DNA from: Acidobacteriota bacterium
GTDB lineage: Bacteria; Acidobacteriota; Blastocatellia; Pyrinomonadales; Pyrinomonadaceae
DNA length: 13,176 nt
Direction of reading: 5' to 3'
NCBI GenBank assembly: GCA_020853255.1
Contig: JADYZI010000128.1
Coordinates: 1 to 13,176, forward strand
The translations under genes and the position numbers were made by a program. Positions within the stretch are counted from its first letter, which is position 1. Each line of letters starts with the position of its first letter. Below the pieces are notes generated by a model. The model was not told the origin of the DNA. It did no database searches and saw only the letters and a program-made list of their open reading frames with translations. This document shows positions 1 to 13,176 of this stretch, piece after piece.

Positions 1-2438
1 ACGAGTACACCGTCGCCGACAAGCACTCCGTCACCGACAAGCACGCCGTCGCCAACGAGAACGCCGTACGAAAGCATCACCGTGCCCGAACCTAACGCTC
101 CGCCGTTGCTTAGCATTACATTGCGGGTCAGGGTAAGGCCGGTCGAGTAATACGTCGAAGTATTAAGCGAAACCGTCGAACCGCTGACGGTGAGTCCCGA
201 ATTCGGAATGTACTCGCGCTTGTAAACAAGCTGGAACTGCGAGATCAGGTTCTGGCCCGTCAGGAACGATGCATTGCCGAACGTCAACTGAGACCAGGTG
301 AACGTGTTGCCGCCGATCGTCGTTGTCGGTGTGGGGGCTACCCAACCGGTCGGGACCATCGAAGCTCCTTTCGTCAGTGTCTGGAAATCAACATCGGTAC
401 GAAGCGATCGTGCTACGCGTACAGCGCCTTCAATGTTGAGTTCACCCGCACCCTGTTCGTACATATCGGCACCGGCAATAGGCCTTGCCGTGTACTGCAG
501 GATCATCTTGACCATGTTCGGCGTCAGGTTCGGGTTGACCTGAAGCAGAAGAGCAGCCGCACCGGCAACCACCGGAGCCGACATCGATGTGCCGCTCATG
601 TACATCATCTTGTCGCCGGCGGGAGTAAGAGCGTCATCGAGAAGATTCAGCGTCGGGCTGAGTATCGACATTTCGTTGCCAGGTGACTTGGCCGAGATGA
701 CTTTGTTTCCCGGAGCGACGATGTCCGGCTTGATCAGGTTGTCATATACCTTGGTACCGGAAGCCGTCGTATAGGAACTGCGCGTCGGTCCACGTGAACT
801 GAACGAAGCGATCGAATCATCCGCCAGCGATGTCGTACCGTAGCTATTGCTCGCTCCGACGGTGATAATATACGGGCTGTTGCCCGGCGAGTGGATGCGT
901 CCGTAAACTTCCTGGCCGCTGCTTGCTTTACCAAGGTTTCCGGCCGCGGCGATGACAACGATGCCGGCATTGGCCAATTCCTTGACCTTTAGACAGACCG
1001 GATCGTTCGTGTATGTGTCGATCGCGTCCGAACCAAGGCTGAGGTTAACAACGCGGATGTTATAAGCCGCGCGATTCTGGAGAACCCAGTTCAAACCATT
1101 GAGCAGCCATGACATCTGGCCTTGTCCCTGATCGTTCAGCACCTTGACGCTGATGATGTTCGCACCCGAAGCAACGCCTTTATATGCGCCGCCGTTGGAT
1201 GAAGAGCTTCCCGCCGCCAAACCTGCGACGTGCGTGCCGTGACCGTAGTTATCGGAGGTCGCCGTCAGCGTCGAGGTCGTGAAATTTACATTAGCGACGA
1301 TGCGCGAATTGCTGCCGTTCTTGAAACCGTTGTGCGAAGAATAAATGCCTGAATCGAGCACCGCAACTCCAACGCCGCTTCCGTCCAGCGTATAGGCCGC
1401 ACGCGAGCCGCTGGCGGGCTGCGACCGCATAAGGGTCAGCCCGGTCGCGTCCTCGATGTGGCCGGTCACGCGTGTCGAACGGTTTGGCGAAACGTAGTTG
1501 ATCATCCCGCTTGTCGACAGCTCTTGAACCGTCGAGAGCGGCATATTGACGACCAGCGTGTCATCCTTGCCGATCCGATCAAGTATCCTCGCCTGGCCGT
1601 TTGCCAAAAGCGAGCGCATCGCGCTGCTGTCGGCATCTTTTGCCTGAAGGATCACGTCAACACGGCTTGAGCCGGATGGATCATTCTTAAGCATTTCGCG
1701 CAGATCCTGCGATACGTTGTCGCCGCGGTATCCGTTCGAACCGCTTGCAGCGGAAGTATCTGAGAACTGTGCAGATCCATCGGTAATGATGATCCCGTCA
1801 AAGAGCGCCGCAACTTCCGGCCGCGTCTTGATCTTGGCGTCGTAAGCTGCCTTCGAGCTTCCGCCGATGATCCGCAGTTTGCCGTTTGCCACGTTTTCGA
1901 GCAGTTTCTGCCCGCCTTTTCCGGCATCGAGAACATTCGTCAGTTCATTGACGAACAATATCGTGTGGGCATTCGAGGTGAGTACCTTATCCAGCACCGA
2001 TTCGATCTTGGCGGAAGCATCCGCTGCCGTTTTTGCGTTGGAGAAGAGATTCGCTGTCTCGAGTTTGAGAATGGAGACACCGGCCAGGCTCTCGTCTACG
2101 CTGCCATTCGCAATGCGGATCGCAAGCTGTTCGACGATAAAGTCCTGATTCTCGCCTTTTTCGTCTACAATGACCGGCTGTCGCTTTCCGTTTCCGGCTA
2201 ACACCTTTATGAGGCGAAGCGTATCGCCTTCAAGGTTTAGGTTCTCACGCAGTCTTCCGTCACGGCCAAGCTGTGTCAGATCGGTGGTAAAGCTAGAAAC
2301 AGCCGATGAGGCGGTCGTGGGGGTGTTTCGGTAGGGGGCGATCACACCGGCGGCGGCCATATTCGTAAAGATAAACGAATATAGCAGCGTCAGCGTGAAC
2401 GCCCTGGTTAAAATTGAATAGTTGGTTAACATTTTCAT
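1..2438 (-). CDS. Secreted S8 (subtilisin-like) serine protease with N-terminal Clp-like pseudo-AAA+ module; C-terminus beyond left edge
   Basis: An open frame encodes at least 812 residues from ATG at 2438, after a GAAGGAG ribosome site 8 nt upstream. A signal peptide (MKMLTNY..., hydrophobic core, AAAG) implies export. Residues about 50-215 match the ClpB-type AAA+ module described for the neighbouring paralogue. A propeptide-like region follows, then the S8 domain: Asp362 in AVLDSG, His400 in HGTHVAG, oxyanion Asn501 in AAAGNLG and Ser618 in SGTSMSAP. All catalytic residues are present, so an active endopeptidase is expected. The visible end is three and a half GVLVGD hexapeptides, cut by the window edge. 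It lies downstream of the paralogue at 2696-5233, on the same strand but behind its own promoter and after a terminator. S8 membership is certain; the substrate cannot be read from sequence. Confidence 0.93.
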   Translation of the reverse strand, partial: MKMLTNYSILTRAFTLTLLYSFIFTNMAAAGVIAPYRNTPTTASSAVSSFTTDLTQLGRDGRLRENLNLEGDTLRLIKVLAGNGKRQPVIVDEKGENQDFIVEQLAIRIANGSVDESLAGVSILKLETANLFSNAKTAADASAKIESVLDKVLTSNAHTILFVNELTNVLDAGKGGQKLLENVANGKLRIIGGSSKAAYDAKIKTRPEVAALFDGIIITDGSAQFSDTSAASGSNGYRGDNVSQDLREMLKNDPSGSSRVDVILQAKDADSSAMRSLLANGQARILDRIGKDDTLVVNMPLSTVQELSTSGMINYVSPNRSTRVTGHIEDATGLTLMRSQPASGSRAAYTLDGSGVGVAVLDSGIYSSHNGFKNGSNSRIVANVNFTTSTLTATSDNYGHGTHVAGLAAGSSSSNGGAYKGVASGANIISVKVLNDQGQGQMSWLLNGLNWVLQNRAAYNIRVVNLSLGSDAIDTYTNDPVCLKVKELANAGIVVIAAAGNLGKASSGQEVYGRIHSPGNSPYIITVGASNSYGTTSLADDSIASFSSRGPTRSSYTTASGTKVYDNLIKPDIVAPGNKVISAKSPGNEMSILSPTLNLLDDALTPAGDKMMYMSGTSMSAPVVAGAAALLLQVNPNLTPNMVKMILQYTARPIAGADMYEQGAGELNIEGAVRVARSLRTDVDFQTLTKGASMVPTGWVAPTPTTTIGGNTFTWSQLTFGNASFLTGQNLISQFQLVYKREYIPNSGLTVSGSTVSLNTSTYYSTGLTLTRNVMLSNGGALGSGTVMLSYGVLVGDGVLVGDGVLVGDGVL
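3..65 (-). repeat. GVLVGD repeat of the left-hand protease, cut by the window edge
   Basis: Three full units and half of a fourth are visible, in the same frame and with the same peptide as at 2753-2860. Again no two full units share the same DNA sequence. The copy number and the protein's end lie outside the window. Confidence 0.88.
1857..2366 (-). repeat. Near-identical 510-bp tract shared with 4649-5158
   Basis: Gap-free alignment at a constant offset of 2792 bp gives about 21 mismatches by my count, about 96% identity, including a run of more than 90 identical bases. It encodes the end of the signal peptide and most of the Clp-like module. The rest of the two genes is much more divergent. 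Confidence 0.9.
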
Positions 2439-2446
2439 CGTTCTGG

Positions 2447-2453
2447 CTCCTTC
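2447..2453 (-). promoter_or_regulatory. Shine-Dalgarno site of the 1-2438 protease
   Basis: On the minus strand this reads GAAGGAG and ends 8 nt before the ATG at 2438. The spacing is ideal for that ATG and too long by 6 nt for the ATG two codons later, so it fixes the start at 2438. Confidence 0.75.
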
Positions 2454-2487
2454 AAGGTTAAAAAGGACCTCGTTGCCAGAGACTCCT

Positions 2488-2506
2488 TTATCAAGGCGCG
2501 TGCCAA
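2488..2506 (-). promoter_or_regulatory. Candidate sigma-54 (-24/-12) promoter of the 1-2438 protease
   Basis: The minus strand reads TTGGCACGCGCCTTGATAA. Against the sigma-54 consensus TGGCACG-N4-TTGCW it matches the whole -24 block with correct spacing, but the -12 block is TTGA rather than TTGC. A nearly identical element lies at the equivalent place before the paralogue (5286-5304). A start site near 2480 would leave a leader of about 40 nt containing the ribosome site. Confidence 0.55.
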
Positions 2507-2564
2507 GGACTTAAGTATTGCTAATAAGTGACTTGTATCGTTTGTTGAGTACGTGATGCAGGCC

Positions 2565-2596
2565 TGATCGGTCAATTTGAATGACCGAATCGGTCA
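2565..2596. promoter_or_regulatory. Cluster of TGACCG half-sites, possible enhancer/operator
   Basis: The half-sites are CGGTCA (2569-2574), TGACCG (2582-2587) and CGGTCA (2591-2596). The last two form a 15-nt palindrome, TGACCGAATCGGTCA, at 2582-2596. The cluster is about 65-92 bp upstream of the -24 element, a usual distance for a sigma-54 activator site. Copies of the half-site also lie upstream of the paralogue. The role is inferred. Confidence 0.45.
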
Positions 2597-2630
2597 GACT
2601 GAATTACGGAAAGAATGTCCGAGGAGGTCG

Positions 2631-2659
2631 AAAAGGCGAGCCGCAAGCGGCCCGCCTTT
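2631..2659 (-). terminator. Rho-independent terminator after the 2696-5233 protease
   Basis: On the minus strand AAAGGCG-G-GCCGC, loop TT, GCGGC-T-CGCCTTTT forms a stem of 12 pairs with one internal mismatch, ending in four U. It begins 36 nt past the protease stop codon and therefore separates the two tandem proteases transcriptionally. The stem is nearly symmetrical and could also act on the other strand. Confidence 0.8.
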
Positions 2660-2695
2660 GATAGATCGGATCTTGATCCGGACGTTTGACGTTAA

Positions 2696-5233
2696 CTACT
2701 GCATTGCAGCGGTATCGTCACCGTTTGTCATGACCGAATGTGACTGAGTGACATCGCCGACCAAAACTCCATCACCAACAAGCACTCCGTCGCCGACCAG
2801 AACTCCATCGCCAACAAGCACACCGTCACCAACCAGGACCCCGTCACCGACAAGTACACCCGAAGGCATTAGGACAGTACCGCCGCCCATGGCTGCACCG
2901 TTACTCCAAAGAACGTTCTTCCCGAGCGTCAGCCCGCCGCCATAATTCGCATTCACTGAGGGCGACCCATTGGAGTTGTATTGAATGCCCGATTCGAACC
3001 AGAAGAAGTTCCGGTAAACCGGCTGGAACTTCTTAACCAGGTTTGCACCAGAAATATAGGTCGCGTTGGCAATAATGCCTTGCGCCCACGGGAACGTGTA
3101 TCCTGCGATCTCTGTACTTGCCGTTGGTATCGACTGTCCGCTTTGAAGGATCGAACTGTCTTTATTGTACTGGTTAAAGTCCTTATCGAACTTGAACGCA
3201 CGTGCAACCCGGATCGCTCCGTCGATATTCAATTGTCCCGCCCCTTGCTCAAACATGTTGTAGCCGTTCAATGGCTGCGCTGTGTATTCGAGCAGCATCT
3301 TGACCATTGTCGGTGTAAGTTTCGGGTTCATCTGGAACAGCAACGCTGCAGCTCCGGAAACCATCGGTGCCGACATAGATGTTCCCGAAAGGTACATCAC
3401 GTCATCATCGTCACCAAGAAGGTCCATATCAGATGTCATCAGCGATGGGTTCGTGGAAATGAGATAGCTCGATGACCGCGCCTTTGCAGCAACGATTTTA
3501 TTTCCCGGAGCCACGATATCGGGTTTAATGACATTGTCATAGTGCGTGCCCGAAGGATCAACGTAATAGCTGCGCGTTGGGCCGTGCGAGCTGTATGTCG
3601 CTACGATGTCGTCCGCACGTGAGTCGGTACCGAGGCCGTTTGACGCTCCAACGGTCAGGACTGACGGATCGTTCCCCGGGCTATGGATCTGTCCGTAGAT
3701 CTTCTGCCCGGAGGCGTTCTTGCCGTGATTACCTGCAGCGGCAACCACAAGAATACCGTAAAAATTCAGCTGCTGTGCCTTACGGCAAAGCGGATCGTTC
3801 GTCCATGTATCGATGGAAGGAACGCCCAAGCTGAGGTTCGCGACGCGGATGTTGTATTCGTCCTTGTGCTCGATCAGCCAGTCCATCGCCGCAAGAAGCG
3901 AGGAAGTGGTTCCCTTGCCCTGTGAATTCAGGACACGCAGGTTGATGAGCTTCGCGTTCGGAGCTATTCCACGATACGCACCAGAATTGCGGCTCATACT
4001 TCCCGCGGCGATCGATGCTACATGAGTACCGTGTCCAAACGCGTCGTCTGTGCTTGTATCACCCTGTACAAAGCTCTTTTGAAACGCTATCTGTGAAACA
4101 TCAAGTTCCTTAAAAGCCTTGTGTCCGCTGTAGACACCTGAATCGAGGATCGCAACCCCAACACCTGACCCATCGATCGTGTAAGCGCGAGATCGTCCGA
4201 ATCCAATTGACTGGGCCCGATTTTGTCCTATACCGCTTGTGTCTTCGAGATGTCCGAGCGCCTCGATCTGGCGGTCCGGAGAAACGTAATTGATAAGGCC
4301 GCTAGTTGAAAGCGTTTGCACGGTCGAGAGCGGCAGATTGACGACGAGCGTCTCGCCCTTACCGATACGATCGCTGATGCGTGCTTCACCGTTGGCCATT
4401 ATGGCCCTGAGCGCGGCGTTGTCAGCATCTTTTGCCTGAAGGATCACATCGACGCGTTCCGTACCAGACGGGTCCTTCGCAAGCATTTCACGCAGGTCCG
4501 GCGAAACATTATCACCGCGAAAGGACTCGGATGCGGTAGGTAGGTTGTTTTCTGAGGCAGTACCTTCAAGATATGCCCCATCAATCTCGATCTTTTCAAA
4601 CAGTGATACGGCGTCCTTGCTTATCTTCGCATCGTATGCTGCTTTTGGGCTTCCGCCGATGATCCGCAGTTTGCCGTTCGCAACGTTTTCGAGCAGCTTC
4701 TGCCCGCCTTTTCCGGCATCGAGAACATTCGTCAGTTCATTGACGAACAATATCGTGTGGGCATTCGAGGTGAGTACCTTATCCAGCACCGATTCGATCT
4801 TGGCGGAAGCTTCCGCCGCCGTTTTTGCGTTGGAGAAAAGGTTCGCCGTCTCGAGTTTAAGTATGGAGACACCGGCCAGGCTCTCGTCTACGCTGCCATT
4901 CGCAATGCGGATCGCAAGCTGTTCGACGATAAAGTCCTGATTCTCGCCTTTCTCGTCAACAATGACCGGCTGTCGCTTTCCGTTTCCGGCTAACACCTTC
5001 ATAAGGCGAAGCGTATCGCCCTCAAGGTTTAGGTTCTCACGCAGTCTTCCGTCACGGCCAAGTTGCGTCAGATCGGTGGTAAAGCTGGAAACTGCCGATG
5101 AGGCGGTCGTGGGGGCGTTTCGGTAGGGGGCGATCACACCGGCGGCGACCATATTCGTCACGATCAACGAATAGACCACCGCAACCAACGTCGCCCTTTT
5201 CAAAATGATGAGGATTTTGTCTAATTGTCTCAT
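2696..5233 (-). CDS. Secreted S8 (subtilisin-like) serine protease with N-terminal Clp-like pseudo-AAA+ module and GVLVGD tail
   Basis: This encodes 847 residues from ATG 5239, or 845 from ATG 5233. The GGAG at 5242-5245 is 2 nt from the first ATG and 8 nt from the second, so 5233 is preferred. Numbering below is from 5239. The signal peptide is about residues 1-34. Residues 53-220 align with ClpB's first AAA+ domain (DLT..GRL, GENQDFIVEQLAIRIANG, TILFVNEL), without a Walker A lysine. Residues about 247-330 resemble an inhibitor-I9-type propeptide. The S8 domain has Asp366 (AILDSG), His403 (HGTHVAS), Asn504 (AAGNHG) and Ser621 (SGTSMSAP). A C-terminal domain (about 690-793) is followed by six GVLVGD units (794-829) and a short polar end. 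It is expected to be an exported, active endopeptidase. The neighbour at 1-2438 is its paralogue. What the N-terminal module binds is unknown. Confidence 0.95.
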   Translation of the reverse strand: MRQLDKILIILKRATLVAVVYSLIVTNMVAAGVIAPYRNAPTTASSAVSSFTTDLTQLGRDGRLRENLNLEGDTLRLMKVLAGNGKRQPVIVDEKGENQDFIVEQLAIRIANGSVDESLAGVSILKLETANLFSNAKTAAEASAKIESVLDKVLTSNAHTILFVNELTNVLDAGKGGQKLLENVANGKLRIIGGSPKAAYDAKISKDAVSLFEKIEIDGAYLEGTASENNLPTASESFRGDNVSPDLREMLAKDPSGTERVDVILQAKDADNAALRAIMANGEARISDRIGKGETLVVNLPLSTVQTLSTSGLINYVSPDRQIEALGHLEDTSGIGQNRAQSIGFGRSRAYTIDGSGVGVAILDSGVYSGHKAFKELDVSQIAFQKSFVQGDTSTDDAFGHGTHVASIAAGSMSRNSGAYRGIAPNAKLINLRVLNSQGKGTTSSLLAAMDWLIEHKDEYNIRVANLSLGVPSIDTWTNDPLCRKAQQLNFYGILVVAAAGNHGKNASGQKIYGQIHSPGNDPSVLTVGASNGLGTDSRADDIVATYSSHGPTRSYYVDPSGTHYDNVIKPDIVAPGNKIVAAKARSSSYLISTNPSLMTSDMDLLGDDDDVMYLSGTSMSAPMVSGAAALLFQMNPKLTPTMVKMLLEYTAQPLNGYNMFEQGAGQLNIDGAIRVARAFKFDKDFNQYNKDSSILQSGQSIPTASTEIAGYTFPWAQGIIANATYISGANLVKKFQPVYRNFFWFESGIQYNSNGSPSVNANYGGGLTLGKNVLWSNGAAMGGGTVLMPSGVLVGDGVLVGDGVLVGDGVLVGDGVLVGDGVLVGDVTQSHSVMTNGDDTAAMQ
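2753..2860 (-). repeat. Six 18-bp units encoding (GVLVGD)6
   Basis: Six perfect hexapeptide units are encoded by six different 18-mers that differ almost only at synonymous sites. The leucine codon alternates between TTG/CTG and CTT from unit to unit, hinting at an older 36-bp doubling. The V-G-x-x-V-x spacing fits the hexad pattern of left-handed beta-helices, but that fold is only a suggestion. Confidence 0.9.
4649..5158 (-). repeat. Near-identical 510-bp tract shared with 1857-2366
   Basis: This is the partner of the tract at 1857-2366 and lies in the same reading frame. Only about five of the differences change an amino acid (for example RNAPTT versus RNTPTT). The identity ends sharply around codon 197, where the proteins start to diverge. 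Confidence 0.9.
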
Positions 5234-5285
5234 TTCCATAACTCCGTACGAGATGAAAAAACTCGGCGCATGCCGTCACCTTCAC

Positions 5286-5304
5286 TTATCAAAGACCGTG
5301 CCAA
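5286..5304 (-). promoter_or_regulatory. Candidate sigma-54 (-24/-12) promoter of the 2696-5233 protease
   Basis: The minus strand reads TTGGCACGGTCTTTGATAA: a full TGGCACG block, N4, then TTGA in place of TTGC. It lies about 52 nt before the preferred start codon, as in the paralogue (about 49 nt). Flanking sequence is poorly conserved, so the match is not just recent duplication. Confidence 0.55.
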
Positions 5305-5368
5305 TTCGCCAACTAATGCAAATACACGACTTAGGCGGAGACAATAGAAAATAAGACCGGATTTTCCT

Positions 5369-5404
5369 GTCAGACTGACCGGATATTTTTGATCAATTTG
5401 ACCG
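5369..5404. promoter_or_regulatory. TGACCG half-sites, possible activator sites
   Basis: TGACCG occurs at 5376-5381 and 5399-5404, with GTCAGACTGA (5369-5378) and TCAATTTGA (5393-5401). All these words also occur upstream of the paralogue at 2569-2600, in a different order. They sit about 70-100 bp above the -24 element. The role is inferred. Confidence 0.4.
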
Positions 5405-5443
5405 ACCGTTGAATGTTTTTCGCGGTGCGGGAGGCTTGGGGCT

Positions 5444-6829
5444 TCAGGCAGTCTGACTATTGGCGATAAGCGTTGGATAATTGCCCGACCAGCAGGCGTT
5501 GCAGGCGGAAGCCGGATCGATGCCAATTGCTTCGAGCATTCCTTCGAGGGATAGATAACCTAACGAGTCAGCGCCTATATAAGCACAGACCTCTTCGGTG
5601 GACATGCGGGCGGCGATCAGGTCCTGGCGATGCGGCGTATCGACGCCGTAGTAGCAAGAGTGTGTCGTCGGCGGGCACGAAATACGCAAGTGGACCTCTT
5701 TGGCCCCGGCTTCGCGGACCATTTCGACAAGTTTCTTTGAGGTGGTCCCGCGTACTATCGAGTCATCCACAAGAACTACGCGCTGGCCGTCGATCAGGTC
5801 CTTTATCGGGTTCAGCTTTAGGCGCACGCCAAAAGATCGGATGGACTGTGTCGGTTCGATAAACGTACGGCCGACATAGTGATTGCGGATTATCGCCTGG
5901 CGGTAATTGATACCTGATTCCTTCGCGTATCCGATCGCAGCGGCAACGCCCGAATCCGGCACCGGCACGATAAGATCGGCCTCGGCTGGCTGTTCGATGG
6001 CAAGCTGCTTTCCCATCTTGTGTCGCGATTCGTTCACTGAGCGCCCAAAGATTATCGAATCGGGCCGTGAGAAATAAACGTGCTCGAAGGTGCAGACCGC
6101 CTTTGGCTTCTGCTCGAACGGATGCCGGGATCCGATTCCGTTCTTATCGACGATGAGCATTTCGCCTGGTTCGATCTCGCGAACGTATTTCGCGTCGATC
6201 AGGTCAAAGGCGCAGGTTTCAGATGCAACGCACCACGCATCACCCAGCTTACCCAAACTAAGCGGGCGAAACCCGCGCGGATCGCGCACGGCGACCAGAC
6301 AGTCCGGCGTCAGGAAGAGGAGAGAAAATGCGCCCTCGGTATCCTTTAGCACCTTCTCTATGGCCTCGATCACACTGTTTGCCTTTGTCCGGGCAATGCT
6401 GTGCAGGATAGTTTCGGTATCGGACGTGGACGAAAAGATAGCACCATCCTTTTCGAGCTCCCGCCGCCGGGCCTCAGCAAACGGCAGATTGCCGTTGTGA
6501 CAAACCGCAATATCGCCATGCTGGCACGTGACCGAGAACGGCTGAACTTCTTTGATCGTGTTCCGGCCGCTGGTCGAATAACGCGTATGCCCGATCGCAG
6601 CCGTACCGACAAGCCGTTTGAGCACATCCTCATTCAGCACATCGGCGACCAGTCCCTGCGAACGGAACTGGTGCAGGTCGCGGCCGTCGCTGGAAACTAT
6701 CCCGCATGCCTCCTGTCCGCGATGCTGCTGCGCGAACAGGCCAAGTTGAGTGAGGGTCGAAGCCTCGTGATGCCCGAAAATGCCAAAGACCCCGCACTCT
6801 TCCTTAAATTTATCCAGAACAAGGTCCAT
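5444..6829 (-). CDS. purF: Amidophosphoribosyltransferase (glutamine PRPP amidotransferase)
   Basis: This enzyme catalyses the first step of de novo purine synthesis: PRPP plus glutamine gives 5-phosphoribosylamine. The protein is 461 residues, the usual length. After an 11-residue propeptide comes Cys12 (EECGVFGI), the expected N-terminal nucleophile of the class II glutaminase domain (about 12-230), with HTRYSTSG and CHNGNL motifs. The phosphoribosyltransferase domain carries the PRPP loop VLVDDSIVRGTT (352-363). Cys246, Cys392, Cys443 and Cys446 match the spacing of the four [4Fe-4S] ligands of the Bacillus subtilis enzyme, so this is the iron-sulfur, processed type. No other purine gene adjoins it here. 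The upstream gap has a palindromic repeat and no strong ribosome site. The start is supported by the propeptide and Cys12 position. Confidence 0.98.
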   Translation of the reverse strand: MDLVLDKFKEECGVFGIFGHHEASTLTQLGLFAQQHRGQEACGIVSSDGRDLHQFRSQGLVADVLNEDVLKRLVGTAAIGHTRYSTSGRNTIKEVQPFSVTCQHGDIAVCHNGNLPFAEARRRELEKDGAIFSSTSDTETILHSIARTKANSVIEAIEKVLKDTEGAFSLLFLTPDCLVAVRDPRGFRPLSLGKLGDAWCVASETCAFDLIDAKYVREIEPGEMLIVDKNGIGSRHPFEQKPKAVCTFEHVYFSRPDSIIFGRSVNESRHKMGKQLAIEQPAEADLIVPVPDSGVAAAIGYAKESGINYRQAIIRNHYVGRTFIEPTQSIRSFGVRLKLNPIKDLIDGQRVVLVDDSIVRGTTSKKLVEMVREAGAKEVHLRISCPPTTHSCYYGVDTPHRQDLIAARMSTEEVCAYIGADSLGYLSLEGMLEAIGIDPASACNACWSGNYPTLIANSQTA

Positions 6830-6840
6830 CTTTTATTATT

Positions 6841-6923
6841 CTAACCACAGAGGACACCGAGAGCACGAAGGCATAATCGATTTTCTCCGACGGTTCAGTG
6901 TTCCCTTTGGTTAGATTTCTTAA
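6841..6923. repeat. Imperfect palindrome of the 'accacagag' family between mobA and purF
   Basis: The left arm begins CTAACCACAGAGGACACCGA. The right arm, read on the other strand, begins CTAACCAAAGGGAACACTGA. About 16 of these 20 positions agree, and the arms are separated by about 30 nt. A related element lies at 7597-7662. It could fold at the end of the mobA transcript; no clear U-run supports a classical terminator. Confidence 0.6.
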
Positions 6924-7567
6924 CTTCCCAAAAGTTTGCGTTCTAATTCGTGCGCTTCCTTAAGATCGTCTTCGGTATTTATGTTGTTGAAATACGATGC
7001 GATCGGCGGCTCCGCGGACGGGCCGTACTCTGCCGGGCTCACTGTCCGCGCCTCCAGGCGTTCGACAATGCTTTGCATCGACGGTGCCGGACGCGGCCGG
7101 ACGATCATCTCTTCGACGATCGGCCCTGCCGCCGCCACCCGATAGAAACCGCACAGAGGCTGTATCCGGCCATCCGCCTGCTCAGGAACAACGGCCCCGA
7201 TACTGCCGTGAACTCCGCAGGTAAAGGCGGCCAGCCGCTTGATCAATTCAGCCGTCACAAAAGGCAGGTCGCACGCAAGAATAAAGGCCCACTCCGCCGA
7301 GGTATTCGTCAACGCCGTGCGGAGCCCGCCTACCGGCCCGCGTCCTTCGATAGTATCGAAGATAAATGGTGCCGAAAGGCGCTCAGCCTCGATGGCAAAC
7401 GCGACCCTGCTGCCGGCGACAAAGGTGATCTTTTCCGCAATGCCCGAATCTCGAACAGCCGCTAGCGCCCGCTCCGCAAGCGTCTTGCCACCAAGCTGCT
7501 CCAACGCCTTATCGCGGCCCAGCCTGGCCGATCGGCCGCCGACCAAAATAAAAGCTTCAATGCTCAA
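6920..7567 (-). CDS. mobA: Molybdenum cofactor guanylyltransferase
   Basis: The predicted reaction is transfer of GMP from GTP to molybdopterin-Mo, giving the guanine dinucleotide cofactor in the cytoplasm. From the TTG at 7567 the protein is 215 residues, normal for MobA. The nucleotide-binding signature is AFILVGGRSARLGRDKA (residues 5-21), then GPVGGL (77-82), CDLPFV with Asp100 likely binding metal, and NINTEDDL near the end. An ATG at 7618 is in frame but lies inside the intergenic palindrome and would add 17 residues unlike the family, so the TTG is preferred; no strong ribosome site decides it. No other cofactor gene is adjacent. A relative such as MocA or another nucleotidyltransferase is possible but less likely. 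Confidence 0.88.
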   Translation of the reverse strand: MSIEAFILVGGRSARLGRDKALEQLGGKTLAERALAAVRDSGIAEKITFVAGSRVAFAIEAERLSAPFIFDTIEGRGPVGGLRTALTNTSAEWAFILACDLPFVTAELIKRLAAFTCGVHGSIGAVVPEQADGRIQPLCGFYRVAAAGPIVEEMIVRPRPAPSMQSIVERLEARTVSPAEYGPSAEPPIASYFNNINTEDDLKEAHELERKLLGS

Positions 7568-7596
7568 TAGTTGAATCTTAGCAAACGACGTGGTCA

Positions 7597-7662
7597 AACC
7601 ACAGAGACACGGAGACACAGAGCAAATCTCAATTCTTGTCTGCGTCTCCGCGTTTCTGCGTT
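7597..7662. repeat. Imperfect palindrome of the 'accacagag' family between fumarylacetoacetase and mobA
   Basis: The left arm AACCACAGAGACACGGAGAC (7597-7616, continuing to 7620) pairs with a right arm at 7640-7662. Apart from one bulged base, 16 of 20 positions in the paired part match, and all four mismatches are transitions. It sits just after the fumarylacetoacetase stop codon and may end that transcript. Confidence 0.65.
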
Positions 7663-7667
7663 AAAAT

Positions 7668-8996
7668 TCACCCCGCCGGAATGATGCGCCCCCGGCACTC
7701 GCCCAGGCCGATACGGCGAAAGCCTTCGCGTTCGCAGAAGCCTTTCATTATTATCTCGTCGCCGTCTTCAAGAAAGCGCCGCTGTTCGCCAGACGGCAGT
7801 TCAAGCGGTTCGGTGCCGCGCCATGTGCGTTCGAGCAAACAGCCGCGTTCGTCTTTTTCCTTGCCGCTTACCGTTCCCGTCGCCATCAGGTCGCCGGTTT
7901 GCAGATTGCAGCCGTTCGATGCGTGGTGCGTCAACATCTGGCCGACGGTCCAATATAGGTCTTTCGTGTTCGAGCGGCTAAGGCGGTGCGGTTCGATCTT
8001 CTCGTCCCGCATCTTCTCGGTCTGAATATAAACCTCAAGATTGATATCGAGGCCGCCGAACTTTTGATTTTGCCGATCATTCAGATAATCAAGCGGCTGC
8101 GGATCGTCCGGGTCGCGTTCGAATGCCGGTGTTCTGAATGGAGCCAACGCCTCCATCGTCACAACATACGGCGAGATCGTTGTCGCAAAGTTCTTCGCCA
8201 AAAACGGCCCAAGCGGCTGGTACTCCCAAGCCTGAATATCGCGTGCCGACCAGTCGTTCACGAGGCAAACGCCAAAAATATGCTCCTCAGCTTCGCCGAT
8301 CGGTATCGGCGTTCCGAGATCGTTCCCCTGCCCGACAAAAAAGCCAAGCTCCATCTCATAATCCAAATTCTTCGCCGGAATAAAAACCGGCGGCTTCTCC
8401 ACATCGCTCCGATTCTGCCCATACGGCCGCTTGATGTCCGTACCCGAAATAACGATCGACGAAGCCCGCCCATGATATCCGATCGGCACGTACTTATAAT
8501 TCGGCATCAACGGATTGTCCGGCCGAAACATTGACCCGACATTCGTCGCGTGATAGATCGAGCAGTAGAAGTCGGTGTAGTCGCCGATAACGGCGGGAGT
8601 ATCTTCAAACATGCAATCCGTGCGATTCGATAGATGTTTTTGAACTACACTCTGTTTATCGAAACGTTGAGAAAGAATTTCACATATTCGCTTACGGAGT
8701 TCCGTGCGACGATAAATCGGAAAATCCATCAGCCCATCCAGACCGGACCACATTCTGCGGCTTCCCAAAAATTCATGATACGAACCATCGAATAAGCCGT
8801 CCTCGAAACAGAAATCAACATTCAGTACCTGATCCCCAATCAAAACCCCAATTTGAATTTCCTTGTGTTCCTTTATATCGTCGAAAAAGACACAAAACGG
8901 CAAATTCTGTATCGGAAAATCCGTATTCGGGTCATTAGCGGATTCGACCCAGCTTCGCAAATTCGGGTCATGGGTTTCGTTGATCGCGTAGGTCAT
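7668..8996 (-). CDS. fahA: Fumarylacetoacetase
   Basis: This enzyme hydrolyses fumarylacetoacetate to fumarate and acetoacetate, the last step of tyrosine and homogentisate breakdown. The protein is 442 residues, slightly longer than the mammalian enzyme, with an SH3-like N-terminal domain and the FAH hydrolase domain. The signature DYTDFYCSIYHATNVGSMFR holds Asp142 (metal) and His149 (catalytic base). Glu214 and Glu216 (LDYEMELGFF), Asp248 (NDWSARDIQ) and Lys268 follow at the same spacing as mouse Glu199, Glu201, Asp233 and Lys253. No other gene of the pathway is visible. The gap upstream is filled by the REP array, which may have separated it from former operon partners. The start ATG has only a weak purine-rich site before it. 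Confidence 0.97.
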   Translation of the reverse strand: MTYAINETHDPNLRSWVESANDPNTDFPIQNLPFCVFFDDIKEHKEIQIGVLIGDQVLNVDFCFEDGLFDGSYHEFLGSRRMWSGLDGLMDFPIYRRTELRKRICEILSQRFDKQSVVQKHLSNRTDCMFEDTPAVIGDYTDFYCSIYHATNVGSMFRPDNPLMPNYKYVPIGYHGRASSIVISGTDIKRPYGQNRSDVEKPPVFIPAKNLDYEMELGFFVGQGNDLGTPIPIGEAEEHIFGVCLVNDWSARDIQAWEYQPLGPFLAKNFATTISPYVVTMEALAPFRTPAFERDPDDPQPLDYLNDRQNQKFGGLDINLEVYIQTEKMRDEKIEPHRLSRSNTKDLYWTVGQMLTHHASNGCNLQTGDLMATGTVSGKEKDERGCLLERTWRGTEPLELPSGEQRRFLEDGDEIIMKGFCEREGFRRIGLGECRGRIIPAG

Positions 8997-9010
8997 ATTA
9001 GTCTTTGATT

Positions 9011-9312
9011 CGCTACCGCTCAGGTTTCTGCCTCGAAGGCGGAAACACGACCGGTAGGGAGTGTGCCCCCTTAGCCAATGTACGGAAAGACTCCTTTCTC
9101 TTTTGTATCATTCGGGCACCCTCGCTACCGCTCAGGTTTCTGCCTCGAAGGCGGAAACACGACCGGTAGGGAGTGTGCCCCCTTAACCAATGTACGGAAA
9201 GACTCCTTTCTCTTTTGTATCATTCGGGCACCCTCGCTACCGCTCAGGTTTCTGCCTCGAAGGCGGAAACACGACCGGAAGGAAGTTGCCCCCTTAACCA
9301 ATGTACGGATAG
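9011..9312. repeat. Array of three REP-like units, period 112 bp
   Basis: Units start at 9011, 9123 and 9235; the first two are almost identical (TTAGCC versus TTAACC). Each has a nested hairpin: in unit 1 an outer stem CTACCG/CGGTAG (9013-9018, 9052-9057) encloses GTTTCTGCCT-CGA-AGGCGGAAAC (9024-9046). The third unit has lost the outer stem (CGGAAG) and decays after about 9312. The array lies next to an RAYT gene, the typical partner of REP sequences, and fills most of the 346-bp gap between fumarylacetoacetase and that gene. Confidence 0.88.
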
Positions 9313-9342
9313 CTCGTGTTACCTGAGTCCGTATGCCGACCT

Positions 9343-9861
9343 TCAGAAGTCAGGCAGATCGTCGCCTTGGCCGTTAACCGTATAATCGACCGCTCTCGCC
9401 ACGTTACTACGTTTCCACAAATACCGAGTGCTTCCGCCGCGGGACCAGACGCGCTGATCCGGTCCAATTAAACCTGCCTCTCGGAGTTCTCGCGTCGCGT
9501 TCGACTTAAAGGCGTTCATGACCGAATTCGGTGGTGCTTGGGCGGAGGCTACTATGTGCGCGTGATTGGTTCTAACGTGAATGGCGGACAGGCCAAAGAC
9601 ACGATGAACACAAACGTTCCGGATAGCTAACTCCACAACGGCTCGCTGCGGACCGTCAAGCAAAAAAACCTCGGAACTCATGTTCCTTTCCATTGTTACC
9701 GAATACACCGGATCGAGGGCTATTCGGTCGGCACCATACAGGTTCTTGCCGTGCCTGTCCACCGACCCTCGCTGATCACCGTGGAGCCACGTGCCGTAGG
9801 TCCTGATGGTGATGAGGTAGGCTAGGGGAAATTGGTTATCGTCCCATTCGTGATCAGACAT
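9343..9861 (-). CDS. REP-associated tyrosine transposase (RAYT, IS200/Y1-like)
   Basis: A 172-residue single-strand DNA nuclease of the Y1 HUH class, which acts on REP hairpins. The frame is intact. The N-terminal part has the subfamily motif ITIRTYGTWLHGDQRGSVDR (about 18-36). The HUH metal site is His100-Ala-His102 in HVRTNHAHIV. The candidate catalytic tyrosine is Tyr160 in AVDYTVNGQG. REP-like units flank it: a three-unit array after its stop codon and an inverted REP core at 9940-9972 upstream. Only a weak ribosome site precedes the ATG, and expression is probably low, as is common for these genes. I see no IS termini or target duplication, so a domesticated RAYT is more likely than a full insertion sequence. 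Confidence 0.9.
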   Translation of the reverse strand: MSDHEWDDNQFPLAYLITIRTYGTWLHGDQRGSVDRHGKNLYGADRIALDPVYSVTMERNMSSEVFLLDGPQRAVVELAIRNVCVHRVFGLSAIHVRTNHAHIVASAQAPPNSVMNAFKSNATRELREAGLIGPDQRVWSRGGSTRYLWKRSNVARAVDYTVNGQGDDLPDF

Positions 9862-9939
9862 AGTTGTTTGTACGGGGAGTACTTCCTGGCGGTCATCTAT
9901 CTGCCGGGGGCAGGCTCCTTACGGATGTGTATATGTCCA

Positions 9940-9972
9940 GGGGCACACTCCCTACCGGTCGTGTTTCTGCCT
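9940..9972 (-). repeat. Inverted REP core upstream of RAYT
   Basis: This matches the unit-1 core in opposite orientation at 32 of 33 positions. It continues into a short hairpin, CTGC-CTAGA-GCAG (9969-9981), whose loop contains the stop codon of the 9971-10882 gene. Confidence 0.85.
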
Positions 9973-10882
9973 AGAGCAGGCCTAAGGCCTTCAGGTCATC
10001 GACCGGTTCTGTAAAGGAGCATGAGCCGAATGAGATCATGCCTTTGCGCCGCAGGATGTCGAGTTGGGCGGCTGATAGGAAATATTCGCCCCGCCAGGCC
10101 ACGCCATCGTCGCGAAAGGCAAATATCTCGTCGAACTCTTCCTCCATCAGTTCTTCAAGCAGGGCGACGCGAAAGCTTTCGCGGGCAAAGCCTGTCATCA
10201 GCAGAACGTTCAAAAAGCCGTGCATTGTTCCGCGCGGCGCGTTCACGGCGTAGGTCAGCGGGCGAAAGCAGCGTATGGGATGATGCAGCCCCGCCGTTGC
10301 CTTGAACGGCACATTTGCCGCCATGCATGTTCGCACAAACCGAACGATCTCGCGCGTCGGCGGAAAATCTTCATGTGTCGTGCCGCCAGACCGTATCTTT
10401 GCCCGCTGTCGTTTTATCGAAAGCATCGAGAGCAGGTCGGCAAAATTTTCGCCCGTTGAGATCTCAAAATACGTCGTCAGATCATCCGGCAGGGCCGCGA
10501 CCGTATTCTCGATCTTTGAGGCGGTGTTCGCCTTGACCTCCAGCGAATCGCACACCGCACGGCCTGCGTTCTGTGAATTGAACAGCTTTATCTCACGGAT
10601 CGTCGTCGCGATATCCTCGCCCGCCAACACACTAAGCCGCCACGGGTCGCCGTCGGAGAAAAGGTCTTCGCCAGCCTCAAGAAATTCATTAAGGCGCGCG
10701 ACCGGCAAAACGAATCTGCCAAGCATCCAGCCGTGTTCCCCGGAACGATACTGCGCATAATTGGCGACCGCTTCTTTCATCGACAAAAGCGATGGCGGAA
10801 ACAATCCGGCGTAATCGACGATCTCGGCGAGCAGTGTGCTGATAGATCGTTTTGGGGGTAGGGCGGCGGCTTGAGCGTTCAT
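9971..10882 (-). CDS. Uncharacterised protein, possible TIM-barrel-like enzyme
   Basis: A 303-residue cytoplasmic protein that I do not recognise; no signal peptide or membrane segment is seen. Clear motif-like stretches are VDYAGLFPP (22-30), AKIRSGG (161-167), FKATAGLHHPIRCFRP (193-208), NAPRGTMHGFLNVLL (214-228) and FGSCSFTEPVDDL (285-297). Lys162 and Lys194, and His and Ser residues at what could be beta-strand ends, would suit a TIM-barrel active site, but this is inference. GAGG lies 3 nt before the ATG. It is on the same strand as fumarylacetoacetase, with the RAYT island between, so the two may once have been co-transcribed. The stop codon lies inside a REP hairpin, so the last residues may be altered relative to relatives. 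Confidence 0.75.
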   Translation of the reverse strand: MNAQAAALPPKRSISTLLAEIVDYAGLFPPSLLSMKEAVANYAQYRSGEHGWMLGRFVLPVARLNEFLEAGEDLFSDGDPWRLSVLAGEDIATTIREIKLFNSQNAGRAVCDSLEVKANTASKIENTVAALPDDLTTYFEISTGENFADLLSMLSIKRQRAKIRSGGTTHEDFPPTREIVRFVRTCMAANVPFKATAGLHHPIRCFRPLTYAVNAPRGTMHGFLNVLLMTGFARESFRVALLEELMEEEFDEIFAFRDDGVAWRGEYFLSAAQLDILRRKGMISFGSCSFTEPVDDLKALGLL

Positions 10883-11020
10883 TTTCCTCGTCTTATGGGC
10901 GCAAAAGTGTATCCTGAAATCATAAGGTTTCTTGCGTCATTATACAAAATGCGAATGCTTCCCGACGAACAACTGCCCCATCGTGCATAAACGCCATAAA
11001 CCCATGCTGATCTGCGGTCA

Positions 11021-11032
11021 TCTTGCGCAAGA
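11021..11032. promoter_or_regulatory. 12-bp perfect palindrome in the divergent gap before ruvC
   Basis: TCTTGCGCAAGA is a perfect palindrome, 65-76 bp before the ruvC start, in the 214-bp gap between divergent genes. It may be an operator; nothing else supports this. Confidence 0.25.
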
Positions 11033-11044
11033 GTTGCATCCTTG

Positions 11045-11060
11045 GATAACCTGCGTTATC
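11045..11060. promoter_or_regulatory. Palindrome GATAAC-N4-GTTATC, possible LexA-type operator of ruvC
   Basis: Two perfect 6-bp arms are separated by CTGC, centred about 45 bp before the ruvC start. The AAC-N4-GTT core equals the core of the Gram-positive SOS box (CGAAC-N4-GTTCG), and ruvC is a DNA-repair gene. The LexA motif of this organism is unknown to me. Confidence 0.3.
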
Positions 11061-11096
11061 TTGTCAGCATTTCCGCATCCCGAATAATCAGGCCAG

Positions 11097-11606
11097 ATGA
11101 GAGTTTTAGGTATCGACCCAGGCAGCGAAACGCTCGGTTGGGGTGTCGTCGAAGGCAGCGGGAACAAGTATTCGCTTGTCGAGTTCGGCGTCGTTCGGTC
11201 AAACCCGCGCCAGGCGTTCTCAAAGCGGCTGGCCAAGATCTTTGTCAGCGTTGATGAGGTGGCCGAACGCCTCCGGCCGGACGCAATGGCGATCGAAGAA
11301 GCTTTCTATTCGGTGAACGTAAATGTCGCGATGAAGCTCGGCCAGGTCCGCGGCGTGATGCTGCTTATGGCAGAACAGCGCGGGTTGTCGATCGCTGAAT
11401 ACGCCCCGCGGTTGGTCAAGAAAACGGTCGTCGGATACGGCAATGCCGAAAAACAGCAGGTCGGCGAGATGGTGCGGCTGCTGCTCGGACTTAAGGCTGC
11501 GCCGACGCCACATGACGCGGCCGATGCCCTGGCGATAGCGATCTGTCATTTTCATCACGCCGGCCTCAATGAAAAGTTGGACAAGGCGATACGCGGTGCC
11601 AGATAA
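11097..11606 (+). CDS. ruvC: Crossover junction endodeoxyribonuclease RuvC
   Basis: This Holliday-junction resolvase works with the RuvAB branch-migration motor in recombinational repair. The protein is 169 residues, close to the family norm. The RNase-H-like fold carries its four acidic ligands: Asp7 (GIDPGSETLGWG), Glu67 (AIEEAFYSVN), Asp140 and Asp143 (HDAADALAIAICH), spaced like E. coli Asp7, Glu66, Asp138 and Asp141. ruvA and ruvB are not adjacent in the window. The gene is divergent from the 9971-10882 gene, with two palindromes in the shared upstream gap. The next plus-strand gene begins 21 nt downstream, so the two are probably co-transcribed. Confidence 0.98.
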   Translation: MRVLGIDPGSETLGWGVVEGSGNKYSLVEFGVVRSNPRQAFSKRLAKIFVSVDEVAERLRPDAMAIEEAFYSVNVNVAMKLGQVRGVMLLMAEQRGLSIAEYAPRLVKKTVVGYGNAEKQQVGEMVRLLLGLKAAPTPHDAADALAIAICHFHHAGLNEKLDKAIRGAR

Positions 11607-11627
11607 CACGTTCATGCGGTTGAAAGT

Positions 11628-12407
11628 ATGAGCTTTTCACGCAAAATTGGAACAGCATTGATGCTGATCATGTCTTTCGCATTTGCTGCCGATGCGCAAC
11701 GGCGGCCGCGAACGACTGTGAAAAGGCCGGCTGCCCTCTCCGCAAAGCCAAAAGAGACAGGCAGTTGGGCGGTTGTGATGGATGAAACGCTTTCGGTCTT
11801 GCGAGCAAGGCCGAGCCTTTTTGCCGAGGCCGTCCAGCGAATGCGGCGCGGCAGAAAGGTGCGAATACTCGGCGTTGCCGAAGCGGACGGCGTCAAATTC
11901 TATCGCGTGTCCGCTCCGCCCGGTTATTCCGGCTGGGTGCAGGCCGACGCAGTTTTCGGCAAATTCCGCGAGGGCGATGATGCCCGGCTTGCACGGTTGA
12001 TACAGGCATCGAGCGGGTTTGAACAGATAGAACTTGCGGCCGCCTTTTTTGAACATTTCCCGCAATCTCAATTTCGCCCGGCGGTACTGCTCCTTTACGG
12101 CGATCTGTTGGAAGAAGCGGCCGCAAAACTTTCAAAAGACGCGTCCTCAAGGCTTAGCCGCCGAGAGATGGCCGCGTCCGCCGCTCCGCTTCACAGCTAC
12201 TATCTCAACTTCAATATGCTCGACCGGTACCGAAAGATCGGGATCATTTTTTTATTCAATCCAAATACGCGGCTTTATCATTACGAGGGAGCAAGTTGGC
12301 GTGAATTGACCGAGAAGTTCCCCGCGTCTGCCGAGGCGTTGGAGGCTGAAAAGCGGATGGCGTCATTGAAAACAAAAATGGACCGCGGGAACGCAGCGAC
12401 GCCGTAG
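11628..12407 (+). CDS. Secreted or periplasmic SH3-domain protein with helical repeat-like C-terminus
   Basis: This encodes 259 residues. The N-terminus is a typical signal peptide (MSFSRKIGTALMLIMSFAFA) with likely cleavage at ADA-Q. A basic proline-containing linker follows (QRRPRTTVKRP). Residues about 46-112 form a bacterial SH3-type domain: VLRARPSLFAEAVQRMRRG, then KVRILG, FYRVSAPPGYSGWVQADAVFG. Residues about 118-255 are mostly helical, with a TPR-like stretch (FEQIELAAAFFEHFPQSQFRPA) and a second FPASAEALEAEKR segment. Bacterial SH3 domains often bind cell-wall peptides, so an envelope role is plausible. It starts 21 nt after ruvC, with only a weak GAAAG before the ATG, and converges on psuG with 11 nt between the stop codons. 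No specific function can be assigned. Confidence 0.85.
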   Translation: MSFSRKIGTALMLIMSFAFAADAQRRPRTTVKRPAALSAKPKETGSWAVVMDETLSVLRARPSLFAEAVQRMRRGRKVRILGVAEADGVKFYRVSAPPGYSGWVQADAVFGKFREGDDARLARLIQASSGFEQIELAAAFFEHFPQSQFRPAVLLLYGDLLEEAAAKLSKDASSRLSRREMAASAAPLHSYYLNFNMLDRYRKIGIIFLFNPNTRLYHYEGASWRELTEKFPASAEALEAEKRMASLKTKMDRGNAATP

Positions 12408-12418
12408 GGCCGGCTTGT

Positions 12419-13176
12419 CTATCGTTCTATTCTAAGCGAAACCTCCGCCGCGACGCGGGCGTTGTTTTCAAGCAGTGCAATGTTTGCCGCCAGCGTCTTT
12501 CCGCCGCTGATCTCGGAGAGTTGAGACAGCAGAAACGGCGTTATCTCCTTGCCGCTGATCGAACTTTTCTCGGCGAGAGCCATCGCCTTTTCCAGCATTG
12601 CTTCTAACTCATCCGCGTCGATAGCCGCGTGCTCAGGCACCGGCACGGCCAAAACGACAGCACTTCGCAGCCCAAGTTCATCCCGTGCTTTTAACACTGC
12701 CGCCGCTCCGCGATCTGTCTCAACACGCCCGTCGATGGCGAGGCCGCTGGAACGTGAATAGAACGCGGGCAATTCATCACATCCCCACCCAAGCACCACA
12801 ACACCGTACGTCTCAAGCCATTCGCGCGTTGCGGGAAGATCAAGCACAGATTTTGCGCCCGAACACACAACAAGGATCGGCGTATTCGCAAGGACCGGCA
12901 GATCGGCCGAAACGTCATAGACCCCGCCGCGGTGAACACCGCCAATGCCGCCGGTCGAAAAGACGCGAATGCCCGCAAGATCGGCTATCAAACTCGTCGT
13001 CGCGACCGTCGTCGCTCCGTTGCGCTTTCCGGCGATAACAAGCGGCAGGTCGCGAACAGAAACCTTCCGCACATCCGTCGCGGTCGCCAATGACTCGATC
13101 TGTGCGTCGTTCAGCCCAACGCATATCTCACCGTCAAAGATCGCGATCGTCGCCGGCGTCGCTCCGTTCTCGCGAA
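12419..13176 (-). CDS. psuG: Pseudouridine-5'-phosphate glycosidase (IndA/PsuG family), N-terminus beyond right edge
   Basis: The enzyme splits pseudouridine 5'-phosphate into uracil and ribose 5-phosphate (reversibly). The frame is open to the window edge: upstream of an internal TTG at 13090 it continues as RENGATPATIAIFDGEICVG, typical of the family, so the gene is 5'-truncated here. Visible motifs are VSVRDLP, GATTVATT, FSTGGIGGVHRGG, VYDVSADL (metal-binding Asp) and VCSGAKSVLDLPATREWLE, whose Lys forms the ribose Schiff base in characterised PsuG. The C-terminal half (TPFLLSQLSEISGG, then LLENNARVAAEVS) is complete. The usual partner, a PfkB kinase (PsuK), is not in view and could lie upstream beyond the edge. 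It converges with the SH3 gene. Confidence 0.95.
   Translation of the reverse strand, partial: RENGATPATIAIFDGEICVGLNDAQIESLATATDVRKVSVRDLPLVIAGKRNGATTVATTSLIADLAGIRVFSTGGIGGVHRGGVYDVSADLPVLANTPILVVCSGAKSVLDLPATREWLETYGVVVLGWGCDELPAFYSRSSGLAIDGRVETDRGAAAVLKARDELGLRSAVVLAVPVPEHAAIDADELEAMLEKAMALAEKSSISGKEITPFLLSQLSEISGGKTLAANIALLENNARVAAEVSLRIER

Follow-up and report, generated by a model that had tools for sequence, protein, structure and literature searches.

Among the described proteins that come close to the locus presented here are two groups. The first comprises the Clp chaperones, whose first AAA+ nucleotide-binding domains (NBD1) pack side by side within hexamers. The second comprises the subtilases with an I9 propeptide, where removal of the propeptide normally frees all parts upstream of it; such subtilases are not known to carry an AAA+-derived domain before the propeptide. 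The present analysis deals with such a domain, here called the module, which is encoded by two neighbouring subtilase genes, A and B, of an Acidobacteriota bacterium (assembly GCA_020853255.1, contig JADYZI010000128.1, positions 1 to 13,176; this whole stretch of 13,176 nucleotides is called the window). A first reading from the letters alone (the sequence-only reading) had claimed that a Clp module was captured by exported subtilases, lost its ATPase motifs and was kept in the protease. Profiles, structure, phylogeny and motif counts now support the capture, the motif loss and the retention in proteases with signal-like N-termini.

ClpB identity and distribution of the module

The module derives from NBD1 of a ClpB-type chaperone, of which it represents the large alpha/beta subdomain, and that it is a dead ClpB-type domain can be regarded as nearly certain. 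The ClpB profile TIGR03346 of NCBIfam matches residues 43-211 of A at E = 2.5e-21 and residues 41-219 of B at 2.4e-20, which confirms that the paralogue has the same module; the profile is aligned over its own positions 149-323 of 853. The NCBIfam profiles for ClpV, ClpA, ClpK and ClpG also match. Every one of these matches lies under the curated whole-protein cut-off, as is expected where a single domain is present. When residues 46-225 of A were compared with the PDB by phmmer, the best match was the ClpB NBD1 structure 4hse (1e-19), and 1jbk was found at 5.4e-19. The likeness to NBD1 pointed out in the sequence-only reading is thus far beyond chance, and its estimate that about a third of the positions are identical is close to the measured 29% (1jbk, 183 residues) and 31% (4hse, 175 residues). 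The translated segments which it quoted were found where it had placed them.

The predicted fold of the module is confident and keeps the RecA-like P-loop alpha/beta core of NBD1; the refuting outcome named beforehand, a fold without this core, did not arise. The profile search proposed at the same time gave a divided answer, as the ClpB profiles match A and B but Pfam AAA (PF00004) matches neither, and among eight relatives scanned with PF00004 only L084 and L086 reach the cut-off. The case is therefore built on evidence other than Pfam. The missing Pfam match could be taken to mean that the ClpB likeness is due to chance or convergence, an explanation which is already refuted by the results given here and to which we attach practically no weight. 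No small helical subdomain, M-domain or NBD2 of Clp was found after the module, which is followed by a low-confidence linker and then the propeptide.

A profile of module plus propeptide has a best match of E 1e-60 or better in 75 of the 119 genomes of the order to which the relative L002 belongs, probably Pyrinomonadales, and at this cut it matches none of 43 other genomes of the same class. A phylum-wide draw, with at most five candidates scored per genome, gave 24 of 396 genomes passing 1e-52, all 24 from the same order. One search of a large protein database ranked 20 proteins with the module N-terminus ahead of ordinary Clp proteins, 19 of them with a precomputed S8 assignment. Queries with modules of classes II and III (classes I, II and III are names coined in this analysis) led to further subtilases in the same database. 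The search with the L089 type of module was limited to the 7993 candidates with the most words in common, and the best 120 of 2566 were listed; among these matches, ClpB proteins are 48-54% identical to L089 (class III) across roughly half of the query. P0045, a relative of L089, shows GEPGPGVAE at the site of GEPGVGKTA in ClpB. Judged from their sequences, class III modules stay strikingly ClpB-like. One protein scored among the subtilases, P0057, is a multi-domain Clp protein and was set aside; it has 1233 amino acids and, by eye, two NBD1-like stretches, and is unrelated to the finding.

A tree was built from 53 hand-picked module rows, and it unites the 33 rows from proteases in one clade (98/98); its long branches L027, P0044, L070 and L077 urge caution. 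The protease clade falls with ClpB, ClpC and ClpA, away from TssH (of the Clp labels, all but ClpB are our own assignment), and the tree does not settle which of the three is its sister. The simplest reading would be a single capture, which probably happened once, followed by loss of the ATPase motifs. A single gain is not shown by the tree of S8 domains: it contains five changes of module label, two of them forced by the starred branches, and 15 of its 23 inner branches are open, which leaves gains versus losses undecided. It should be noted that row L101 of this tree is mislabelled as having no module, as it is the protease half of the copy in genome G007. In that copy (C1:2065118-2067462) an in-frame TGA lies within the module/propeptide stretch, and a separate protease open reading frame (ORF) adjoins.

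Loss of the ATPase residues

A first alignment of 26 module rows with five Clp rows sets Walker A of ClpB, GEPGVGKTA, against DEKGENQDF in A, and Walker B of A reads VNEL; the changes of the Walker A Lys to Gln and the Walker B Asp to Asn described in the sequence-only reading are correct for gene A. Its claim of a deleted arginine-finger segment holds to the extent that A is two residues short there, but there is no general deletion, since B and most relatives have a substituted segment (EVAALF in B versus ALERRF in ClpB). The fingers are lost in both A and B.

The family counts come from 77 distinct module ORFs of fetched loci, after removal of 9 repeat loci and of 9 Clp loci that were short, overlapping, cut or masked. 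The rows were split by the motif GxxxxGK[TS] into 63 without and 14 with it; the 63 are a part of the relatives, and the distribution search lists more matches. Gln stands at the Walker A Lys position in 41 of the 63, and Lys is retained in one, L086, which reads GETPYGKA. Walker B Asp and Glu are retained together in 18, and Arg is found at the first finger in none and at the second in three. All 14 Clp rows retain the Walker A Lys, Walker B Asp/Glu and both Arg fingers. The pore-loop tyrosine is present in no protease row as against 8 of the 14 Clp rows. Because the split was made by the motif, a count of 0/63 for the motif itself is circular, and the rows were recounted with S8 judged by a profile built from the family. 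Among the 77 ORFs, 62 then had S8 and no motif, 14 had the motif and no S8, and one contig-end fragment had neither. L074b, a 290-amino-acid module ORF in G035, meets a contig end. The 164 module proteins from three protein searches gave 36 with S8 and no motif, 126 with the motif and no S8, one with both (P0017) and one with neither (P0006, which was omitted from alignment A2). The motif of P0017 sits in the linker, at residue 216, and its own Walker A site reads DEDKAVQEA.

The loss falls preferentially on the catalytic columns in two classes. Among the columns conserved in Clp proteins, the 53 rows of class I keep 16% at catalytic columns versus 37% at the others (323 of 20000 permutations were as low), and the 7 rows of class III keep 30% versus 54% (282 of 20000 column permutations). 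A module that still binds or hydrolyses nucleotide outside the cell could be suspected from the GETPYGKA of L086 and from the 18 rows with both acidic residues of Walker B; however, a complete Walker A at the proper site occurs in none of the S8-bearing ORFs, the Arg fingers are lost and ATP is scarce outside cells, and we regard nucleotide use as highly improbable.

Propeptide, selection and proposed role

Pfam finds Peptidase_S8 in both A and B (Table 1). Of 65 proteins scanned, 64 have the S8 match and 61 have the complete set of three triad motifs; in three others the Asp motif alone is missing from the scanned stretch, and the remaining protein is a contig-end fragment. Pfam gives no I9 match in A or B, and the propeptide of A matches pro-subtilisins structurally across the propeptide stretch. 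The module lies N-terminal to this I9-type propeptide, a position which narrows its proposed role to that of a subdomain of the pro-region. The proteins look exported by N-terminal hydrophobicity, the sole criterion used: 60 of 63 relatives pass, two fall just under, and one has only 10 residues upstream.

At L002 and L004 a subtilase without the module adjoins the module gene, and it has a signal-like N-terminus, by eye a propeptide-like stretch, and a GVLVGD tail. The existence of module-less paralogues with a similar propeptide-like stretch and S8 domain marks the module as an addition. It sits at a clean junction and is not a general need of such proteases.

The module is under purifying selection. 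The ratio of nonsynonymous to synonymous substitution rates (dN/dS) lies between 0 and 0.12 in the six pairs compared, and the modules of B and L001 differ over 162 codons by 18 synonymous and no nonsynonymous changes. Over 162 codons, the DNA identity between the modules of A and B is 94.7% and the protein identity 98.1% (dS 0.22, dN/dS 0.04), versus 56.7% and 56.1% for the catalytic domains, where dS is saturated. The two modules are sisters in the module tree, and the S8 tree puts the catalytic domains into different lineages, A with L100 and L104 and B with L001. The module has been copied between A and B without the catalytic domains. Gene conversion or module exchange over about codons 30-206, with an end near codon 206, is the natural explanation; the 23 synonymous differences between the two modules argue against a mere assembly artefact. 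Recent exchange was not seen in the G004 pair L004/L092 (module 65% and S8 58% identical in amino acids) or in the G065 pair L055/L091 (48% and 57%).

A module which stands before a propeptide of the autoprocessed type, is motif-dead, is constrained and is optional among paralogues is best read as a non-catalytic subdomain of the zymogen pro-region. We propose that a subtilase in one acidobacterial order captured the NBD1 subdomain of a ClpB-type protein, probably once, and that the captured module no longer has the residues with which ATP is bound and hydrolysed. Folded beyond the cytoplasm, it would form a rigid scaffold without catalytic activity and would act in the zymogen together with the I9 propeptide next to it; there it may help to fold, cap or pair the inactive enzyme. 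Upon self-cleavage of the protease the module would be released together with I9. To the mechanism as a whole we assign a probability of about 0.5. The binding, folding or inhibitory role suggested in the sequence-only reading is a reasonable possibility.

A ring or other oligomer of pro-proteases, assembled through leftover AAA+ interfaces, is a rather unlikely alternative. It would draw on the side-by-side packing of NBD1 in Clp hexamers and on the retained core fold. The Arg fingers and nucleotide-site residues which organise Clp rings are lost, however, which disfavours a Clp-like ring, and neither the pore-loop tyrosine nor the small helical subdomain is there.

Four observations weigh against the proposed pro-region role or against parts of it. 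The model of the full-length protease is weak, with a mean predicted local distance difference test (pLDDT) score of 60, and the seating of the module on the protease can not be read from it. The three rows of class II show no preferential loss at catalytic columns (23% versus 28%; 7796 of 20000 permutations as low). Between L002 and L004 the module is 75% and the catalytic domain 74% conserved, and conservation at the same level would fit just as well with a module that keeps its function after maturation. This would suit a module that stays on the mature protease and binds a substrate or surface partner, a function that would go back to the chaperone scaffold; the module exchange between A and B could then retarget the protease. 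Such a binding domain is possible but doubtful, as the module precedes an I9-type propeptide. Lastly, 44 of the 119 genomes of the order are without the module at the cut used and stay within the ClpB background (5.8e-50 or weaker). Together with the wide divergence among classes this could indicate that the module is a decaying remnant of a fusion and has no function; the low dN/dS, the confident predicted fold and the retention in 75 genomes make this very unlikely.

The locus and its comparison with known systems

Genes A and B form a tandem pair on the minus strand, downstream of an ORF which we take to be purF; their features are collected in Table 1.

Table 1. Features of genes A and B (positions in the window)
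Feature	Position	Strand	Evidence
Gene A, S8 subtilase with signal-like N-terminus, 847 amino acids	2696..5239	-	ORF; Peptidase_S8 2e-47 at 357-668
Signal-peptide-like N-terminus of A, residues 1-33	5141..5239	-	hydrophobic segment, by inspection
Dead ClpB NBD1 large subdomain of A, residues 45-220	4580..5107	-	
Former Walker A of A, residues 95-103, DEKGENQDF	4931..4957	-	aligned to ClpB GEPGVGKTA
Former Walker B of A, residues 163-169, ILFVNEL	4733..4753	-	alignment
Former arginine-finger end of A module, residues 206-216, both Arg gone; segment of B longer by two residues; stretch copied between A and B stops here	4592..4624	-	
I9-type propeptide of A, residues 241-330	4250..4519	-	
S8 catalytic domain of A, residues 340-690; D366, H403, S621	3170..4222	-	Pfam; motifs DSG, GHGTH, GTSMS
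GVLVGD C-terminal repeats of A	2754..2860	-	18/36-bp tandem array; Hexapep 795-828 under Pfam cut-off
Gene B, paralogous subtilase, open at window edge	3..2438	-	ORF; Peptidase_S8 6e-50
Dead ClpB NBD1 module of B, residues 42-217	1788..2315	-	ClpB profile 2.4e-20 at 41-219
Sigma-54-type -24/-12 promoter-like site of A, TTGGCACGGTCTTTGATAA	5286..5304	-	pattern match
Sigma-54-type promoter-like site of B, TTGGCACGCGCCTTGATAA	2488..2506	-	pattern match
Enhancer-like half-site upstream of A, TGACCGA	5399..5405	.	motif; family enrichment
Three enhancer-like half-sites upstream of B (2568, 2582, 2590)	2568..2596	.	motif

The pattern TGGCA[CT]N5TTG, which follows the -24/-12 consensus of sigma-54, occurs at a near-constant upstream place in 54 of 62 family stretches, those of A and B included, versus none on the reverse strand of the same stretches and a mean of 0.10 in dinucleotide shuffles; the stretches stem from related genes and are thus non-independent. 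Under a common upstream rule it precedes 52 of the 61 genes of the family, none of the 14 Clp genes (true upstream stretches) and 3 of 161 neighbouring ORFs (uncurated), and two of these three, in L002 and L003, are similar ORFs with an exported look. It also precedes 5 of 12 distinct module-less subtilases. A scan of eight genomes with the two-part pattern found mostly the module family and also other ORFs, and the backwards control pattern matched too. Half-sites GACCGA/TCGGTC are present in 57 of the 62 stretches (112 sites versus 11.9 in shuffles), and 102 of the 104 in promoter-bearing genes lie upstream of the promoter, by a median of 89 bases. Half-sites also precede 54 of the 161 neighbouring ORFs and two of the 14 Clp genes and are therefore far less specific than the promoter. 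Promoter and half-sites together hint at a possible regulon under a sigma-54 activator. Three neighbouring ORFs (L002:2015-2740, L003:1061-1699 and L003:105-839) have signal-like N-termini and the sigma-54-type pattern upstream, and they are possible further members.

A bolder proposal would be an exported, ATP-free analogue of the Clp proteases, in which a motorless ClpB scaffold still recognises extracellular polypeptide that is unfolded or aggregated and couples this recognition to release or steering of the protease, as a cassette swapped between paralogues and switched by sigma-54; we hold it to be improbable.

Two further observations concern the window itself. The GVLVGD motif is coded by 18-bp repeats at the C-terminus of both genes (10-67 and 2754-2860) and perhaps forms a short solenoid of the hexapeptide type. 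Three tandem repeats of 112 nucleotides at 9010-9345 are followed by an ORF at 9343-9861, presumably a transposase, with an inverted 33-nucleotide copy beyond it (9939-9972); repeats and ORF look like a REP-type element with its own transposase.

Among the titles and abstract starts listed in searches of open-licence PubMed Central, a scope to which subscription papers and preprints do not belong, none described a subtilase with a ClpB-derived domain. The family is a well-populated case of a part of an ATP machine turned into a structural pseudo-ATPase in exported-looking proteins. ClpB profiles expose the domain, which Pfam AAA misses, and the order of motif loss can be studied, as the relatives span from about 50% (L089) to about 30% (gene A) identity to ClpB.

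Compared with NBD1 of ClpB/Hsp104 (1jbk, 4hse and 2p65), the module is without Walker A, Arg fingers and pore-loop tyrosine and without the small subdomain, M-domain and NBD2, and it is joined to a protease with a signal-like N-terminus. With the I9-propeptide subtilases (ProN-Tk-SP, 3afg, and pro-subtilisin E, 3whi) the proteins share propeptide, S8 fold and triad motifs. The plant SMXL/SMAX1 proteins (PF23569, NBD_SMAX1) likewise have a diverged ClpB-type NBD1 with another job and may serve as a precedent for ClpB relatives of this kind. PF23569 has no Pfam match in A or B and scores under its cut-off of 27 bits in P0001 (14.2), L089 (19.3) and L086 (13.2). Unlike the module, the SMXLs are plant regulators which keep the Clp-N/D1/M/D2 layout, and Walker motifs are reported in them (PMC9133912).

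A likeness in role, with no homology claimed, is offered by Plasmodium Sub1, whose prodomain reportedly includes an N-terminal belt subunit that brings about dimerisation and autoinhibition (PMC10936178). As there described, the belt is likewise a lineage-specific extra subdomain in a subtilase prodomain which governs dimerisation and latency, and it may be taken as a precedent for an added prodomain subunit that silences a subtilase. The present family would add a testable example of a prodomain acquiring a new module.
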